Shown: piece by piece, positions 15,553 to 48,675 of the stretch
Position numbering within the stretch: the first letter of the stretch is position 1
Layout of the letters: every line of letters starts with the position of its first letter
The notes under the pieces: model-generated
What the model saw: only the letters and a program-made list of their open reading frames with translations
What the model was told of the DNA's origin: nothing
Databases searched by the model: none
Source: Cloacibacillus porcorum
Lineage (GTDB): Bacteria; Synergistota; Synergistia; Synergistales; Synergistaceae
Direction of reading: 5' to 3'
DNA: 64,000 nt
NCBI RefSeq assembly: GCF_001701045.1
Contig: NZ_CP016757.1
Span: 1,171,501-1,235,500 of the forward strand
Program-made: the position numbers and the translations under genes

Positions 15553-15996
15553 ATGCGTAAACGTAAAACGGAAGAAAGAATAAGAGCAATTGAGATGCAC
15601 AAACAGGGAATTCCACGAAGGCGGATTGCTGAAGAACTTGGTGTTAGTCCTGATTCTATTAAAACATGGATATCTTTATATAAGAGCGGACAGAAGGACT
15701 TACTGGATGATACAAGGAAAAAAAGAACCTACAGCAAGGCTGTAAAACTTGAAGCTGTTTCGGCTCATTTAGAAGAGGGACGTACTATGGTAGATGTTAC
15801 CTCATCTTTTAACATTTCAAGTCCCTCTCTTTTAAGACGATGGTGTAAGGAATTTATCGAACAAGGGGATATTTCTAGTTCAAAACGTGACTGTCCAGAT
15901 AAGAAATTGGAAGTTACAAATAGCATAGAAAAGATCAAAGAGCTGGAAATGCAGGTCGACGTATTAAAAAAAGCCTTAGAGCTGCAAAGGTGGTGA
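15553..15996 (+). CDS. IS3-family transposase OrfA
   Basis: 147 residues after GGGGG 7-8 bases upstream of the ATG. Two helix-turn-helix units are seen: residues 8-45 (IPRRRIAEELGVSPDSIKTW) and about 63-100 (MVDVTSSFNISSPSLLRRW), the double-HTH form of IS150-type OrfA, followed by a coiled coil (KIKELEMQVDVLKKALEL). It recognises the IS ends. It overlaps orfB by 7 bases; a -1 slip at the A7 run would give an OrfAB fusion, the active transposase in this family. Confidence 0.88.
   Translation: MRKRKTEERIRAIEMHKQGIPRRRIAEELGVSPDSIKTWISLYKSGQKDLLDDTRKKRTYSKAVKLEAVSAHLEEGRTMVDVTSSFNISSPSLLRRWCKEFIEQGDISSSKRDCPDKKLEVTNSIEKIKELEMQVDVLKKALELQRW
15966..15973 (+). promoter_or_regulatory. Programmed -1 frameshift site of the IS3 element
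   Basis: A-AAA-AAA-G sits in the orfA frame as tta-aaa-aaa-gcc. The -1 frame stays open from here into orfB, as needed for an OrfAB fusion. Confidence 0.65.
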
Positions 15997-16862
15997 TAGA
16001 AAGAAATATTAAATACAGAATCATTTTTGAATTTTCAACAAAACATTCTGTCTGTGGAATGTGTAGATTTTTGTCCGTATCACGCTCTGCATACTACAGT
16101 TGGCTAAAGCGGCGTGGAATGGAAGATAAAGACGGTCCTCTCATAGAAGCAATAAGAACGGGACAGGATATCAACAAAAACACTTATGGGTACAGGCGAA
16201 TGACTCTGTGGCTCAACAACTTCATTGGCATTCATGTAAACAATAAGAGGGTAAGGCGTGTTATGAAAAAAGCGGGACTTCAAGCGGAAATAAGAAAAAA
16301 GAAAAAGTTTAAAGTGATGTCAGGAAATATCCACAGCTATGAGAATATCCTGAACAGAGAATTTCGTTCCGACAGACCAAACCAGAAACTGGTTACTGAT
16401 ATCACATATATACGAACAAAAAAGGGTAATATATTCCTCTCCATGATAAAAGATCTCTTTGATAATTCCATACAGGGATATCAAATCAGTCGTAATAATA
16501 ATATTAAGTTAGTAACCGATACATTGAAGAAAGCATTTGAAAATAATAATAAGGTGGTCGCTGATGGACCAATCCTCCACAGCGACCAGGGGTTTCAATA
16601 TACAAGCCATGCATATTTCAACCTGACACAAAGATACGGACTCAAGGTCTCAATGTCAAGGAAAGGAAATTGTTTGGATAATGCATGTGCAGAAAACTTC
16701 TTTAGTCACATTAAATCAGAACTCGTCAACCGAGTAAAATGGGAGAACTACGAGGAGGCCAAAGATGCCATAGACGAATATATAAGGTATTATAATAACG
16801 ACAGGATACAGATAAAATTGAAAAAGGCTCCGATGCAATATCGAAGTCTCTTTATTGAATAA
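15990..16862 (+). CDS. IS3-family transposase OrfB (DDE integrase core)
   Basis: 290 residues, GTG start inside the end of orfA. It has the N-terminal HTH_21 region (MCRFLSVSRSAYYSWLKR) and the rve integrase core with the DDE triad: KLVTDITYIR (first Asp), HSDQGFQYTS (second Asp), and ENFFSHIKSEL (Glu), then YYNNDRIQIKLKKAPMQYR at the end. It carries out strand transfer. No stop or frameshift breaks it. Confidence 0.92.
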   Translation: MVIERNIKYRIIFEFSTKHSVCGMCRFLSVSRSAYYSWLKRRGMEDKDGPLIEAIRTGQDINKNTYGYRRMTLWLNNFIGIHVNNKRVRRVMKKAGLQAEIRKKKKFKVMSGNIHSYENILNREFRSDRPNQKLVTDITYIRTKKGNIFLSMIKDLFDNSIQGYQISRNNNIKLVTDTLKKAFENNNKVVADGPILHSDQGFQYTSHAYFNLTQRYGLKVSMSRKGNCLDNACAENFFSHIKSELVNRVKWENYEEAKDAIDEYIRYYNNDRIQIKLKKAPMQYRSLFIE

Positions 16863-17382: not shown

Positions 17383-19899
17383 TTACCTTTTCCTTCTTCT
17401 CATCCAGAGCGGTATCAGCGCGAAGAGCGCCAGCGCTCCCACGCCCGCGGCGCAGCCGCTGCCGCTGGTGTAGACCCTGTTAACGGAGACGGTGGCCTCG
17501 GTGGTCTTAAGACCGTCGTCGGTCGTGACGGTGATGGTGGCGAAGCCGACCGCGAGGGCGGTAACTTTGCCGTTAGCGTCCACGGAGGCGATCTTCTCGT
17601 CACTGCTCTTCCAGGTGACGCCCTTATTGTCGGCGTTGGCCGGCAGTATTTCGGCGGTGAACCGGATGGTATCGCCGATCTTCAGCGTCGCGCCCTCGGG
17701 GGATATCTTCACCGATTCTACCGGCACCGGGGGAGCGGTGACGGTGAGGGAGCAGGAGGCGCTTACATTAGCGTCATCCTTTGCGCCGCTCGCGGTGGCG
17801 GTGATGAGGACGGGGCCGCCCGGATTATGGGCGAAGACCTCGCCGTTTTCGCTGACGGCGGCGATATTTTCGTCGTCGCTCTTCCATCTTACGCTCTTGT
17901 CGGTGGCCTTCTCCGGGCCGACCAGAGCGGAGAGTTTCGCGCTTTTGCCCGCCTCAAGCGTGAGCAGGTCGGGCGAGACCGTTACGCTCTCGGCCCAGAC
18001 GGGGATGACGGTGACAACGCAGGGAACGCTCGTCAGATCGCCGACGCTCGCCGTGATCTTCGTCTCGCCTTTGCCGACCGGCGTGACGTATGCTGTTAGT
18101 GCCTTCGCGTCGCTCTTGTCAGGCGACACAGTGGCGACCTCCTCGTTTGAACTCGTCCAGTCAACCTGGCCGTAGTCGGCGTTATCGGGGGAGACGGTGG
18201 CCGTGAGTTCGTATGTCCGTACCTCGTCGTTCATGTCGATGGATAAGCTCTTTTGCGAAATGTCGACGGAGGAGGCGTTTACGGGCTTGACCGTCACCGT
18301 GCGGGTATCCGTGCGCTGTCGCCCGTCATCGTCGGTATCTTCGGTGGTCACGGTTATATCGGCGCTGCCCACGGCGATTGCCCGCATTTCGCCCGACTCC
18401 TTGTCGATCGAGACGACGTCGGAGTCGCCGCTAGACCAGAAGACCTTCAGGTTGGCCGCTTCGGGAGGCTCCACGGTGGCTGTGAGCCGCGCCCCTTCGC
18501 CCTTATAGATGTTGATATCGTGGCTTGTGATGGCGACGCCGCTGACCTTTGTCGTATTTGTGACCGTGACGCCGAAGGTGAATTTCAACTGTGTAGATTC
18601 GCCTAACGGCGGCAGATTATTTGTATCACTGGAATCCGTCGGGTCAAGGTTTGCGGATAGGGTTATGGCGGCGGCGGTCCGCTTTGTACCGCCCTTGGCC
18701 TTAGCGGTGAGCCGGATTTTTCCGCTTGTCTGGTCGACGTCGGCGGAGAGTATATCGGTGTCGGATACCGCCACGTCGATGCTGGTCACGTAATCGCCGA
18801 ATTTGTTCGGGTCTCCAAACAGGGTGGAGAGGCTGATATCCGCCGTCTCTCCGTTATTGAGGGCGTAACTTGTGAGTGCGGCGCTGAGTGCGGCGACGCT
18901 TTTGTCTACCTTATCCTCATCGTTGAGTATGAAGGTGCCTTCGTCACTGCCATTTCCTACACCGTTGATATCTTTATTGATTTCATTCGTTTTCAGCCAG
19001 CCGCAGTTTGATATCGTGCCGCCGCCGTTGTTTCCCACGACGCCGCCGGAGTATCCGCCGCCGGCGATATCGCCGCAGTTGAGGCAGTTTGATATCGTGC
19101 CACTGCTTTGTGTGTGTGCCGCGATGCCGCCAGCTTGTCTGTTGCCGGTAATATTGCCGCTGTTGATGCAGTTTGACATCGTGGATAATTCGATGTTTCC
19201 TGCGATGCCGCCAGCTCGTATGTTGCTGGTAATATCGCCGCTGTTTACGCAGTTTGATATCCTGCTGTATTTGCAGCCTCCAACTATGCCGCCCATGGTG
19301 ATGCTATCTGTTCTGGTAATCAAGGGGCCGGCGTTTACGCAGTCCTCTATCGTGCCGTAGCATCTTCCCGCGACGCCGCCCGCCTGGGCACCATCGCCGC
19401 CCGTATCGGTGATATTAATATCGCCGCTGACGGTGAGCCCACGCACCATGCCGTCGCCCTCGCTGCCGACGACACCGAAGAACCCCATGAAGGCGGTTCG
19501 TGTCGTTATCCGGTAGCCCTTGACGGTATGGCCCGCGCCGTCGAAGGTGCCGGTGTAGCTGTTGTTTGCTTTGCCGATGGGCGTCCACTCCATAGCCTTG
19601 CCATCCATGTCGGTGAGGTCGATGTCGGCGGTGAGGCGTGCTTTGGCGGAGACGAGGTCGCCGCTGTTTACGCCGTCGCGGAAGTCACAGAGGTCTTTGG
19701 AGGTGGCGATGATATAATAGCCGTCCTCGTCCTGTTTCAGTTCGGCGCGTGCCGGTCCGGGGGCGGCGAGGATGAAGAGGGTCAAAACAAAGAGGAGCAG
19801 CAGCCGCGCGCGGCTGCTTAAATGAACATGGGTAAATTTATGGGGGGGTGAGTCAAAGTTAAATAATTTCAATTGCTGACGGCTCTCACACGGCGACAT
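17383..19899 (-). CDS. Surface protein: GLUG-like repeats, four Ig-like (BIG2) domains, Synergist-type C-terminal sorting tail
   Basis: 838 residues from ATG 19899 (GGAGGG 9 bases upstream). A 30-residue lead, unusual for a signal peptide, precedes the hydrophobic stretch LLLLFVLTLFILAAPGPARA. Residues about 130-310 carry GLUG-like repeats (GGVAGRCYGTIEDCVNAG, GGIAGNIELSTMSNCINSG), probably a beta-helix. Four BIG2 domains follow from about 455 to 810. The tail GCAAGVGALALFALIPLWMRR matches the Synergist-CTERM pattern: Cys-Gly motif, hydrophobic helix, basic end. The protein is probably exported and processed or anchored at the cell surface, with adhesion as an inferred role. A tract of seven C at 19842-19848 lies inside the lead and is in frame here. 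A paralogue follows upstream. Confidence 0.88.
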   Translation of the reverse strand: MSPCESRQQLKLFNFDSPPHKFTHVHLSSRARLLLLFVLTLFILAAPGPARAELKQDEDGYYIIATSKDLCDFRDGVNSGDLVSAKARLTADIDLTDMDGKAMEWTPIGKANNSYTGTFDGAGHTVKGYRITTRTAFMGFFGVVGSEGDGMVRGLTVSGDINITDTGGDGAQAGGVAGRCYGTIEDCVNAGPLITRTDSITMGGIVGGCKYSRISNCVNSGDITSNIRAGGIAGNIELSTMSNCINSGNITGNRQAGGIAAHTQSSGTISNCLNCGDIAGGGYSGGVVGNNGGGTISNCGWLKTNEINKDINGVGNGSDEGTFILNDEDKVDKSVAALSAALTSYALNNGETADISLSTLFGDPNKFGDYVTSIDVAVSDTDILSADVDQTSGKIRLTAKAKGGTKRTAAAITLSANLDPTDSSDTNNLPPLGESTQLKFTFGVTVTNTTKVSGVAITSHDINIYKGEGARLTATVEPPEAANLKVFWSSGDSDVVSIDKESGEMRAIAVGSADITVTTEDTDDDGRQRTDTRTVTVKPVNASSVDISQKSLSIDMNDEVRTYELTATVSPDNADYGQVDWTSSNEEVATVSPDKSDAKALTAYVTPVGKGETKITASVGDLTSVPCVVTVIPVWAESVTVSPDLLTLEAGKSAKLSALVGPEKATDKSVRWKSDDENIAAVSENGEVFAHNPGGPVLITATASGAKDDANVSASCSLTVTAPPVPVESVKISPEGATLKIGDTIRFTAEILPANADNKGVTWKSSDEKIASVDANGKVTALAVGFATITVTTDDGLKTTEATVSVNRVYTSGSGCAAGVGALALFALIPLWMRRRKR
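19842..19848 (-). repeat. Poly-C tract (C7) inside the 5' coding region, in frame
   Basis: Seven C on the coding strand encode part of Ser-Pro-Pro-His at codons 17-20. The same position in the paralogue has eight C (22711-22718) and is out of frame. Confidence 0.85.
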
Positions 19900-20011
19900 A
19901 ATCTATCGCCCTCCTTTCTATCTTGTGAAGCTGTGTATCACATACTGTGGATAGGGGCCGCGAAAGAATATCCGCGGCCCGTTCCTATTTTTCTTTATGC
20001 CCTGTTTTTGT

Positions 20012-22769
20012 CTATTTCGCTGGCCGTCTCTTTTTCAGGAGCAGCGGGATCAGCGCGAAGAGCGCCATCGCACCTACGCCCGCGGAGCAGCCGTTGTGGA
20101 CTACTGTGCCAATCATGTCTCCTAAGACTGGGTCTGGAGATACCATCACGCTGGTGCTGGCCTCTTTTCCGCCGTCGTCGGTCGTGACGGTGATTGTGGC
20201 ATTGCCGATACTGACAGTTGTTACTTTGCCGTCGGCGTCCACGGTGGCGATCTTTTCGTCGCTGCTCTTCCAGCTAACGCCCTTATTGGTCGCGTCTCTT
20301 GGCAGTACCGTGGCTGTGAGTTGGTATGTCTTGTCGGGTTTGATTTTCACGGCTTTGTCGCCGGGCTCGAGCGAAATCTTCACCGACTGCACCCGTATGG
20401 GGGAGGCGGTGACGGTGACGAAGCAGCCTGCGGCCACGGTCGTACCCTCTTCCGCGCCGATGGCTTTGGCGGTGACGACGGCCTGGCCGGGGTTATGGGC
20501 GACGACCTCGCCATTTTCGCCGACGGAGGCGACATTCTCGTCGCTGCTCTTCCATTCGACTCTTTTGTCACTGGCGTCCGCCGGGAAGAGGGTGGCGGTT
20601 AGTTTCTCGTGCTCTCCCGTTTCCAGCTGCGCCGCCCCCTTTGAGAGCTCAATGCCGGTGACCCAGACCGCCGGTTTGAGCACGGTGATCTCAAGCGTTG
20701 GCCTGCCTTCGACGCTGCCGTCCTCAGTCTTGACGTTGACGGTGGTGGTTTCGCCGGCCTTGAGCGCCGTGAAGGTCGCCGCTTCGCCCTTCTCTATCTC
20801 TTCCACCCTGTCGAGCGAGATGACGGAGGAGTCTCCTATGAGCCAATCTAACTTCCTGTTTGTGGCGTTGGCGGGGAGGAATAGTGCGGAGGCTGTGAAC
20901 TGTTCTCCTGCATAGAGTGATTTTTTGCCATCCTTGGAATCCTCGATATTGAGTAAGATGCTCAGTGTCTTTTCCTCGCTGACGGTCACTCTGCAGTCGT
21001 CGGAGATGCTTTGGTTCTCAGAGGCGGCGGCCCATATTGTGGCTGTGCCGGGGCTCTTTGAGGTCACTTTGCCGTTCTCGTCTACCTCGGCGATGCCGGG
21101 GGCGCTGCTGCTCCAGACGATTTTCGTGTTCGTAGCCTCGTCCGGTATCACGTGGGCCGAGAGCTGTGCCGTATCGCCGAAACCTTTGAGTGTGACGTCC
21201 TTGCTCGATGTCATCTCCACGCCGGTGACGTGGATGGGTTCCACAACCTCGATGGCGCGCGTGAAGGAGCAGGTTAGCGGGGGCGGAGGAAGAATAATAT
21301 TCTTGGGATGCTCGAAGTCGCTCGCGTAGAGGTCGGCGGAGAGCGCCACGGCGGCGTCTCCAGTCTTGTCCTTGGCGGTGACCTTTACCTGGCTGTCGCC
21401 GATCGTGCCGACGGTGATGATATCGCTGCTGGTACTCGCCCTCAACCTTCTAACATTTTGGGAGTCTGCCGGAGTTCCGGGGAGGGTGATGAGCGGGATT
21501 GTCGTCGAACCGCCGTTGACGGGGATACGGCGCTTGTCGGTCTGCGCGGTGAGGGTGGTGACGGCATTTTTCATCGCGTTTTCGTCAAGTTTTTTCGTGT
21601 TATCCGTACCAGTACCGCTGCCGACGCCATGTTCGGCCGTTCCTTCCAGCCAGGCGCAGTTTTCTATCGTGGCATTTCCGCCGGTGTCTTTGCCGAGCAC
21701 GCCGCCTCTGAATGCGTCGAGTTGGACTTCACCGCTGACGGCGAGGGTGACACGGCCTCTATTGGCACAGCTGCCTATCTCCGGAGTCCCGCCGCCGCTG
21801 CTGCCCGAGGTATTTCCCACGATGCCGCCAGCGTAGTTGGGTTGGTTATCATTTGTCTCAATTGCCGAGATGGAGACCCCTCCGAGGTTTGCGCAGTTGT
21901 ATACTTTGCCGCTGCTCTGTGCCGCGATGCCGCCCGCAAAGTTTTGCTCGCCGTCAGAGGCGGAGGTTGGGGCGGTGGCGCGGCTGGCGCAGTTATATAT
22001 CGTGCCGCCATTTATTCCAACGATGCCGCCTGCGTAGTTGGATGAGGATTGCCCGTCGCCCTTGGCGGCGACGGGGCCGTCGTTGAGGCAGCTTGTGATA
22101 GTTCCGCTGAGCGTGTTCTGTCCCGCGATGCCACCCGCGTGGTTGAAGTAAAGGTCCGTAGAGACGATAACGGCGGCGGCGCTCCGGCAGTCTTCTATCG
22201 TGCCGTCGTTCAAGCCGGCGACAGCGCCGGCATTGACGGTGGTGCCTGTGGCGGAGGTGATATTCACCCCGCCCTCTACGGTGAGTCCGCGCACGACGCC
22301 TTTTTTGCCGTCTTTTTCGCCGATATAGCAGAAGAAGCCGGCGTGGCCGTCTCCGACCGTTTTCGTTATCTCATAGCCTTTGACGGAATGGCCCGCGCCG
22401 TCGAAGGTGCCGGTGTAGGGGGTGTCGTAGTCGCCGCTGATGGGCGTCCAGTCCATGAGTTTGCCGTTCGCGTCCGCGAGGTCGATGTCGGCGGTGAGCA
22501 GCGCGTCGGCGGAGAGCGGTATAGGTTCGCCCTTGATGCCGTTGATTCTTTCGTTGAATTCGATGAGGTCCGCCGAAGTGGCGATCTGATAGACGCCGCC
22601 CTCCTGCGTCAGGGCGCAGGCATACTGGGGCGAAGCGAGGATAAAGAGGGTTAGTAAAAAGAGAGTTAGCGGGAGTACAAGTTTATTTGTGAACCTTAAT
22701 AAACTCACTTGGGGGGGGTGCATCAAAGTTAAATGTTGATAGGTGTTGATTAGCGTTGTGTGACGACAT
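20012..22769 (-). CDS. Surface protein paralogue, GLUG-like and four BIG2 domains, sorting tail; out of frame at a C8 tract
   Basis: The natural start is ATG 22769, with AAGGAG 10 bases upstream, matching the paralogue's start (MS, then FNFD-(S/A)-PP). Read as given, this frame stops at 22683 after 29 codons, because the tract at 22711-22718 has eight C. With seven C it joins the long frame (about 918 residues) exactly at the point equivalent to the paralogue. Without the slip the only starts are TTG/ATG at 22726/22723 with no ribosome site. After the hydrophobic signal (LPLTLFLLTLFILASPQYACA) come GLUG-like repeats (GGIAGQNTLSGTITSCLNDG), four BIG2 domains and the tail GCSAGVGAMALFALIPLLLKK. 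It is probably a surface protein switched off in this sequence. Confidence 0.85.
22711..22718 (-). repeat. Poly-C tract (C8), shifts the surface-protein frame
   Basis: Eight C after GAT GCA on the coding strand. Loss of one C, or gain of two, restores the frame into the 900-residue protein. This is the classic layout of a slipped-strand phase-variable gene. Confidence 0.85.
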
Positions 22770-22826
22770 AAGGTATCAGGCTCCTTTTCAATATGATTTA
22801 AAATACTGAAAATACGAAATAGAATA

Positions 22827-22844: not shown

Positions 22845-23037
22845 GATACACAATATAGTTTATGTTTGTGATTTGTCAAGCGGCTTTGCCATGTTTTTGC
22901 GCTTCGCAGGACAAGAACATAACCGGACGCCGCTGGATGCCGGGTCAAGCCCGGCATGACAAACCAAAGAAAATATAAATCGTAATTTACCGCTTTCCCT
23001 GCCCGATTTATTGCCGACGCGTTTGTCCCGGCCTTTA
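22845..23037. other. Intergenic region with a dispersed repeat copy
   Basis: No gene seen. Holds CCGCTGGATGCCGGGTCAAG plus CCCGGCATGAC (22930-22960) and, at 22977, TCGTAATTTACCGCTTTCCC, both related to the 17.0-17.2 kb repeats. Confidence 0.55.
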
Positions 23038-46083: not shown

Positions 46084-48675
46084 TTAAAGATTAAAGAGAA
46101 ACTCCTCCGATAAATTTATTGGTGTACTTGAAGTACAAGGAACTTCGTTCCCTTCTTGATTGCTGCTTTGGTAAACACTTAGTACGAACTTTTCCGAATC
46201 AGTTTTAGGAGGGTGCTCTCTGATGAACCTATCGATATCAATGCCATTTAATAAAAGATTATATGTATCCTTCGAAATATAGTAATTATAATTATTGCCG
46301 ATATTAAAACTTATGGCATCTCCTAGTACTCGATATATGTTTCTGGTAGAAATAATATTTAGCATGTAATCCTTTATAATTTTTGTTGATTTCTCGTAAT
46401 GAGCTAATAGTCCTATAATGTTATGAAAGTGATAATTTTCATTCAAGTATAAATCTATTTTTTTAGAGACAATAGTATCACACATATTTTTATATAACTC
46501 TTGTATTCGCGTAAGATGAGTACCATTATCTCTTTCCATATTTCGTAGAATTTGGTAAATAATCGCTATTTTTGAATATGCCTGGCTTACCTTTAGAATA
46601 AAATCTTCTATCTCTGTTAAATTAAGTTTATTTAATAAATTAGAAATAATTAAAATGGCACGTCTTCTTGCGCTAAAATAAAAAAATCCGCTAGAATCAT
46701 CAACATAATACATGCACTTAAAAAAAGTAATAGCTGTTGATAGTCTTTTTTGGGGAGATATCTTTTCGATAAAAAGATGAAAGTATTCAAAATAAAGCTT
46801 TTGCTTGTCGCTGTTCATATCACTAATGTTAATGTCGGGAAAAATAGCGTCATTGTTTATTTTATAAATATAATTAATTACATTATTTCTTATGTCTATA
46901 AAATCGTTGGTTAAATACGAAAAATAAAGGTCGAAATACCTTGCACTACATATTCGTACATTTTCTGCAACCTCCTCAGTATCACGCTCTGGCTGGACTC
47001 GATCGAATTGACTGTTCGCGGAAAAATCTTTGCTGGTATTAGGAAACATATCACTCAGAAGATTTATATATAACTTGTTTTCTGATTTGTTATTCAAATC
47101 AGCAAAAAAAGTTGAAGCGTCTTCTTGAAATTCCTCTGATGCTAATTGAGCGCTATATATTTCTTGATCATCAATACCATCATGAGAAACAAAGAATATT
47201 TTATGCTCGTAAATTTTTTGGTACAATTCTCTATTGCAATATTTTATATACTCTAGCCCTAGTAGATCTGGTTTATACAGATGTGTTTCATTAACCATAG
47301 GTGTATATAGTATGGAGTTGATAAGTCTTTTGAAATTTCGCATATTGTTGATATTGCTACTGATACAGTTTATCAGCAAATCGTAGTTTTCCATTTTTTC
47401 AGGTTTGTTTTCATAGGCAGACAATATATTTCTTAGACAAGTAGAATAAATACCCTTTAGATTATTGGTATTAGGTGTATCAAGTTTAACTATCATATTA
47501 ATGATTTTTTCAATATATCTTTTGTCGATTTTTAATTCACACTCAAATATCTTTGATATTTGTTCTGGGTCATATGATAATACGTAAATAGTCCTTTTGA
47601 AGTCAAGAATAAGACTCAATGCTTTAAATAAAAAAACAATATTTTCTGGTTCAGATCGATCTAGATCATCTATAAAAAAAACAATTACTTTATTATTGTT
47701 TTCTAAGTACCTGTTGATTTCTGCTTTTATATCATTAATTCTATTGCTGAGCCCATGTTGTGAGCAAAATAGTGTTTTTATAATGCTACTTGTCCTATTA
47801 GAGGACAAAAATTCGCTAATATTTGCTATAGACTTTCTGCTTTGCAAAAAACTATAATTTATACCAGAAGCTTCTAGAATAGAGTCGAACATCCCTAATA
47901 AAAATGCTTCTTGATTTTCATAAAGCCATGGAGAAAATTTATCAACGATAACATATTCATAATGTTCGCTATTATTTTCTTTTATCCCGTCTTTAACAAT
48001 ATTTATGATTGTTGTCTTTCCACTTCCCCATTCCCCTTCTAAACCAATTACATATGAAAGGTCTGGCTTACTATATGTAATTGCGTTAAATAGGCTGTCT
48101 ATGATATGTCCACGGTTTAGTAAATCATAATGCACATCTCTCTCTTCCACTAAAATAGGAACGTTCGTATTATCTGCCTTTATAAAATTATTCCTGTATA
48201 TATCACATATATCATAGAAAGTTGATTTATATTCTTCTGACTGCATTCTAGTAAAATAAAATGCTATGATTCTTGCGAGTATCACTAATGCTAATAAAAT
48301 AATGAGAACAATTACAATATATATTTTACACCCTTGATATCCTATAAATTTTAGTAATATGGAATATTCGACTAAAACTAAGCATAAAACAAAGAGATAA
48401 TAGTCTATCAGAACAATAGATGTGACAGACAGTGCCTTTATAACTTGATGTTTAACAAGTAGAATTACTATGATGGAAAAGGTAATAATAAGTAATATTA
48501 TCTGTATATTTAAGGAAAAAATTGCAATATAATGAAAATATAACCTTGAGAGTAGGTTTAATTCATCGGCTATAATTAATAATGCAAAGAATGTTAAAGA
48601 TGTCATTATGCATGAAAGCTTCTTATTTTTAAATGTTAATGAAAAATAATTTTTAATTGAGCTGATGGAATACAT
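46084..48675 (-). CDS. KAP-family P-loop NTPase with N-terminal membrane segments
   Basis: 863 residues, clearly AT-richer than the host genes, so acquired. Residues 18-145 hold about four transmembrane helices. The KAP NTPase domain (about 190-530) has Walker A GEWGSGKTT and Walker B VIVFFIDDLDRSEP, then LSYDPEQISKIFE and LDTPN, all typical for KAP proteins. The C-terminal 330 residues are helical and unrecognised. KAP NTPases are membrane-linked; the known member PifA of the F plasmid blocks phage T7, and others lie in defence islands, so an antiphage or membrane-surveillance role is possible but unproven. It stands alone next to the tRNA-Pro end of the island, facing it. Confidence 0.85.
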   Translation of the reverse strand: MYSISSIKNYFSLTFKNKKLSCIMTSLTFFALLIIADELNLLSRLYFHYIAIFSLNIQIILLIITFSIIVILLVKHQVIKALSVTSIVLIDYYLFVLCLVLVEYSILLKFIGYQGCKIYIVIVLIILLALVILARIIAFYFTRMQSEEYKSTFYDICDIYRNNFIKADNTNVPILVEERDVHYDLLNRGHIIDSLFNAITYSKPDLSYVIGLEGEWGSGKTTIINIVKDGIKENNSEHYEYVIVDKFSPWLYENQEAFLLGMFDSILEASGINYSFLQSRKSIANISEFLSSNRTSSIIKTLFCSQHGLSNRINDIKAEINRYLENNNKVIVFFIDDLDRSEPENIVFLFKALSLILDFKRTIYVLSYDPEQISKIFECELKIDKRYIEKIINMIVKLDTPNTNNLKGIYSTCLRNILSAYENKPEKMENYDLLINCISSNINNMRNFKRLINSILYTPMVNETHLYKPDLLGLEYIKYCNRELYQKIYEHKIFFVSHDGIDDQEIYSAQLASEEFQEDASTFFADLNNKSENKLYINLLSDMFPNTSKDFSANSQFDRVQPERDTEEVAENVRICSARYFDLYFSYLTNDFIDIRNNVINYIYKINNDAIFPDINISDMNSDKQKLYFEYFHLFIEKISPQKRLSTAITFFKCMYYVDDSSGFFYFSARRRAILIISNLLNKLNLTEIEDFILKVSQAYSKIAIIYQILRNMERDNGTHLTRIQELYKNMCDTIVSKKIDLYLNENYHFHNIIGLLAHYEKSTKIIKDYMLNIISTRNIYRVLGDAISFNIGNNYNYYISKDTYNLLLNGIDIDRFIREHPPKTDSEKFVLSVYQSSNQEGNEVPCTSSTPINLSEEFLFNL

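Follow-up and report, generated by a model that had tools for sequence, protein, structure and literature searches.

How can a gene of Cloacibacillus porcorum CL-84T (G000; closed genome, 3,585,187 bp) with a long, otherwise intact reading frame be out of frame with its own start codon at a run of eight cytosines? The gene lies on the minus strand of the window, which is the whole 64,000-nucleotide stretch analysed here (G000:C1:1171501-1235500; positions without the G000 prefix refer to the window unless a genome position is stated). From ATG 22769, with AAGGAG upstream, 51 nt of leader precede the C8 tract, and translation across it gives MSSHNANQHLSTFNFDAPPPSEFIKVHK followed by a stop, a product of 28 aa. 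With C7 the frame reopens into 918 aa, and with C10 into 919 aa; C6 or C9 closes it after 20-21 aa. The homopolymer is located inside the ORF, between the start codon and the signal peptide, and the gain or loss of one C shifts the frame of the whole gene, both of which are properties of a contingency locus. The neighbouring paralogue carries C7 at the matching place and is in frame from ATG 19899, and C6, C8 and C9 each close it. On the frame relations that it stated (closed at C8, open at C7, the C7 neighbour in frame), the sequence-only reading, made before any search, proved accurate.

Table 1. Features of the two tract-bearing genes in the window, and tract length and frame state of the 12 genes of the C. 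porcorum genome (G000) that share the leader layout.
Feature	Position	Strand	Tract	State or remark
C8 tract (G8 on the + strand), proposed switch	22711..22718	-	C8	gene out of frame by +1
Leader ORF with C8, MSSHNANQHLSTFNFDAPPPSEFIKVHK then stop	22683..22769	-
AAGGAG ribosome-binding site, 11 nt 5' of ATG 22769	22781..22786	-		paralogues: same motif, similar spacing
Promoter-like TTGACA-16-TATATT, 11/12, ~80 nt upstream of ATG 22769	22852..22879	-		consensus match only
Long ORF 3' of the tract: end of signal-peptide n-region, hydrophobic core, GLUG-like repeats, four Big_2, sorting tail	20012..22708	-
Synerg-CTERM sorting tail (TIGR04564)	20024..20092	-		27.3 bits, cut-off 22.5
Internal ATG, in frame with the long ORF at C8	22721..22723	-		without Shine-Dalgarno
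Neighbouring paralogue, 838 aa	17383..19899	-		in frame (ON)
Tract of neighbouring paralogue	19842..19848	-	C7	ON at C7 or C10
AAGGAGG ribosome-binding site of neighbouring paralogue	19910..19916	-
Layout gene	G000:46715		C9	ON
Layout gene	G000:489109		C9	OFF
Layout gene	G000:525128		C8	OFF
Layout gene	G000:583808		C9	OFF
Layout gene, neighbouring paralogue in the window	G000:1191342		C7	ON
Layout gene, the C8 gene	G000:1194211		C8	OFF
Layout gene	G000:1429295		C9	OFF
Layout gene	G000:1531456		C9	ON
Layout gene	G000:1782540		C7	OFF; decayed copy, own frame lost
Layout gene	G000:1896760		C7	OFF
Layout gene	G000:3251112		C10	OFF
Layout gene	G000:2838792		G9 in gene sense	OFF

These two tracts are the only C/G runs of at least 7 in the 64-kb window. 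About 6.4 such runs are expected from its dinucleotide make-up, so that the position of the tracts, not their existence, is improbable by chance. Just past the end of the neighbouring paralogue, two adjacent ORFs (15553-16862) resemble, by eye, an IS3-type transposase pair.

The protein encoded beyond the C8 tract consists of a signal-peptide-like N-terminus (judged by eye), a GLUG-like repeat region, four Big_2 stretches found with Pfam (E 2.5e-39), and a C-terminal tail that exceeds the NCBIfam Synerg-CTERM cut-off. The four Ig-like domains and the sorting tail proposed from the bare sequence are thereby borne out. The proposed GLUG-like repeats hold in part: in this protein GLUG (PF07581) stays below the threshold (E 0.56, 11.2 bits against a gathering score of 20.5), and it passes in the neighbour (30.6 bits), in four of seven paralogues scanned and in most of the related GLUG-type ones tested. 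In an AF2 model (mean pLDDT 73.8, pTM 0.45), the N-terminal repeat region is strand-rich and is accompanied by Ig-like domains, an arrangement that fits a surface adhesin or an S-layer-like protein without proving either. Foldseek matches are generic multi-domain Ig-like proteins and some S-layer proteins with low TM-scores, and no function is therefore assigned from them. From the agreement of the Big_2 domains, the Synerg-CTERM tail and the signal-peptide-like N-terminus, we infer that the products are exposed at the surface.

The layout is shared by 12 genes of the genome, each with a Shine-Dalgarno sequence, a start codon (ATG, but TTG in two), 40-55 nt, the tract and then a signal peptide. 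The tract is C7-C10 in eleven of them, including three C7 copies, and G9 in one. All 12 end in a Synerg-CTERM-type sorting tail, ten above the cut-off and two (genome positions 489109 and 3251112) just under it. Counted from the starts that are homologous among the leaders, three genes are in frame and nine, the G9 gene among them, are out; of the eleven poly-C genes, 3 are ON, 5 are shifted by +1 and 3 by -1. All but one of the nine OFF genes keep 587-1922 open codons past the tract. Only 25 C/G runs of at least 8 are present in the whole genome, and nine of these are within such leaders (eight poly-C). Elsewhere in the genes tested, runs of more than six C are absent, and the tract stays pure C although proline has four codons. 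Among 36 other Synerg-CTERM candidates whose 5' regions were read, the G9 gene alone has a tract and the rest mostly have ordinary signal peptides; the tract marks a subset of this protein class, with ~35 other candidates lacking it. The C7 paralogue at 1896760 is out of frame because the sequence after its tract differs by two bases in number; no single tract length is therefore correct for all genes, and C7 fails as a general rule for the right length.

Several further observations were made at these and similar loci. The ON copy at 46715 contains an in-frame TGA further downstream, and two DUF6273-like Synerg-CTERM genes, this one (L096:1027-1722) and that at 3139343 (L243), have it at the same place, in the context WWLRSPGG[GS]VY-TGA-AS, after which the frame continues to the sorting tail. 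The organism has been reported to possess 18 selenoprotein genes (PMC12013277), and the shared TGA may reflect read-through, selenocysteine or a common lesion. Several C-tract loci (G000:C1 near 1632886, L102; 2314754, L104; 3033714, L109; 3251112, L043) are preceded by a repeat whose longest form is TTTTACCCCCTATATGTACAGGATTAGTTTAGCAGTGCA; this repeat is absent from the window and is possibly the end of a mobile element. An intergenic sequence occurs twice, at G000:C1:3033714 and 3085917 (L109, L110); the tract is C9 in one of the copies but C10 in its duplicate, a few bases differ just past it, and it is perhaps of promoter type. At G000:C1:1484408 and 3157350 (L101, L111), C11 follows an SD-ATG leader, with no long ORF in the stretch read.

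The layout extends beyond this genome. The pattern SD-ATG-N30-58-C8 is present in 30 of 188 Synergistota genomes, with 7 distinct tracts in G000 (six of them before layout genes) and 11 in the Synergistaceae MAG G020; the reversed control pattern has no match in either, and the single matches of most other genomes are within background. Poly-G leaders were rejected as a general device, as the poly-G version of the pattern has no match in G000 or G020 and is not enriched, though one G000 gene uses G9. In viral contigs, a single distant match to the Ig domains was seen, and the pattern matched at 16 scattered sites. The layout recurs in relatives, where the tracts are C7-C13. Ten genes of G020 (frames of at least 218 codons) carry the leader with C9-C12, two of them ON (C12) and eight OFF. 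Two paralogues of this MAG, L049 (C10, off) and L050 (C12, on), are identical in sequence on either side of the tract, over the final leader codons and the 20 bases that follow it; on sequence comparison, this pair indicates most clearly that the length of the tract itself changes. Another G020 paralogue (L053:1814-2467) has a second homopolymer, G9 in gene sense (run 1827-1835), within GLUG glycine codons and near an early frame end; slippage may be possible at this run as well. Elsewhere in the order Synergistales, in another family, C11-C13 occurs inside or just after signal peptides and is followed by 537-984 open codons; some of these genes have Synerg-CTERM-like tails, and none of the six that have long frames is in frame.

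Across 33 genes of several genomes, ~6 are ON, ~18 are at +1 and ~9 at -1. These counts use the start homologous to the other leaders and differ slightly from the script's own tally (7/19/7) because the choice of start is ambiguous for L037 and L060. The excess of the +1 frame was dropped as a signal, since near-identical G020 copies inflate it: after near-identical copies are collapsed by hand, the +1 class is ~14/28, not clearly different from chance.

The reading that we favour, at a probability of roughly 85%, is that the locus belongs to a slipped-strand translational contingency family of about 12 phase-variable genes for sorted surface proteins in one Cloacibacillus genome. The sequence-only reading had recognized the layout of a contingency locus in one gene and its neighbour, and the 12 like genes with mixed frames, together with the recurrence in other Synergistaceae and in another family, strengthen that claim considerably and independently. 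Translation would begin at the SD-ATG leader and proceed through the C tract, set immediately ahead of the signal-peptide core. During replication, slipped-strand mispairing would add or remove one C. One tract length in three would join the leader to the signal peptide, leading to export and to sorting by the Synerg-CTERM tail; at the other lengths translation would end after 20-30 codons, and the OFF state would presumably abolish the protein. Since each gene has its own tract, cells of one population would differ, mosaic-like, in their surface repertoires, with a putative role in adhesion or in evasion of phage or host recognition.

As switches, the tracts would have to change reversibly and often enough in growing cells. 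Several points weigh against this reading. Tracts of C7 or C8 are short if a homopolymer is to switch fast and, since MutS (MutS1) and MutL are both encoded in the genome, a fast rate is not to be assumed for them. The decayed copy at 1782540, the in-frame TGA of the ON copy at 46715 and two young G020 pairs with dN/dS near 1 count on the same side. The excess of OFF (+1) over ON copies is unexplained, though many copies are of recent common ancestry.

A sequencing or assembly error at 22711-22718, with a true tract of C7 and a gene in frame in the sequenced culture, is rather unlikely but deserves weight, as long-read assemblies err at G/C homopolymers and C7 would bring this gene into frame. 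Against it, tracts recur at one position in 12 genes of the genome as well as in further assemblies, and each of the three frame relations is represented. The gene at 1896760 has C7 and is nevertheless out of frame, and the C run stays pure despite the freedom of proline codons. Because many genes in several assemblies carry the tract, an error cannot explain the class. An error at the C8 tract is compatible with the family-level explanation, and individual lengths elsewhere could also be errors. Ribosomal or transcriptional slippage would leave OFF copies dim and not silent, through a programmed +1 frameshift on CCC-C or through slippage of the transcript. CCC-C is known to be prone to +1 shifts, and in the 33-gene count given above no other offset is as common as +1. 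We nonetheless regard this explanation as improbable: ON, +1 and -1 copies coexist, and identical flanks are found with C10 or C12. Programmed frameshifting calls for one constant offset and is disfavoured for that reason; a conserved site at a constant offset was not what these genes presented. Programmed slippage may coexist with genetic switching. In that form, the tract would double as a genetic switch and a CCC-C slippage site in several Synergistota lineages, giving three levels of expression from a single tract (bright in frame, dim at +1, silent at -1), which is a speculative and doubtful extension.

Translation from the internal ATG 22723 (or TTG 22726) would make 903-904 aa constitutively at C8 and render the tract incidental. 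At C8 this ATG is indeed in frame and is followed by a usable signal peptide, MHPPQVSLLRFTNKLVLPLTLFLLTLFILA. It has no Shine-Dalgarno sequence, in contrast to ATG 22769, which has AAGGAG placed as in the paralogues. The codon arises from GAT-GCA in this copy alone; related leaders have something other than ATG at the corresponding site. Near the tract, none of the OFF copies offers an in-frame start linked to a Shine-Dalgarno sequence, and many lack any in-frame start there, all of which makes an internal start very unlikely. Least credible is the view that the OFF copies are decaying pseudogenes, dead members of the family, to which the copy at 1782540, having lost its frame, and leaders that precede remnants (1632886 in G000, 993114 in genome G001) lend some colour. 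Most OFF copies retain long open frames of the size given above, domains and the sorting tail, and in the intact ones the tract is the sole break of the frame. The L040/L043 pair, both OFF, has a dN/dS of 0.29. Most other pairs give 0.46-0.73; two young G020 pairs are near 1, so that selection on them is not demonstrable and the argument is not valid for every pair.

If the contingency reading is true, a commensal from a phylum that inhabits the animal and human gut and mouth would have a dozen independently switchable surface proteins, and neither one genome nor a bulk culture would represent its surface correctly. Annotation may label switchable genes as broken, and comparisons of strains or of phage resistance would have to read tract lengths.

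The type of switch is already known elsewhere, and we rate the phylum and the protein family as new for such switches. The sequence-only reading knew of no case in the Synergistota, and a search of the open-access literature on phase variation or slipped-strand mispairing in Synergistetes, Synergistota or Cloacibacillus likewise found none described. The closest comparison is with Neisseria, where homopolymeric-tract contingency loci include the autotransporters NalP and MspA (PMC3723659) and a meningococcal set of phase-variable genes (PMC5084427). In Neisseria as in the proposed family, a homopolymer lies in the reading frame of genes for surface or secreted proteins, slippage would switch the frame here as it does there, and many loci occur per genome. 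Unlike in Neisseria, the tract here follows the start codon and precedes the signal-peptide core in a set of paralogues, the phylum is different, the proteins are of the Synerg-CTERM, Big_2/GLUG kind, and the switching is predicted from sequence. Campylobacter and Helicobacter have poly-G/C contingency genes for surface features (PMC8355987, PMC2823697), with C/G tracts about as long as these, whereas here one paralogous family of sorted proteins has a common leader and layout, and both MutS and MutL are encoded. In Bordetella pertussis, homopolymeric tracts have likewise been studied as sites of phase variation (PMC1891110), in contrast to the multigene family with one common layout described here. 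The tail of the C8-gene protein, above the curated cut-off, is like that of the Synerg-CTERM family (NCBIfam TIGR04564); the family definition is silent on tracts, and the trait separates the 12 genes from the many other candidates of the same genome.
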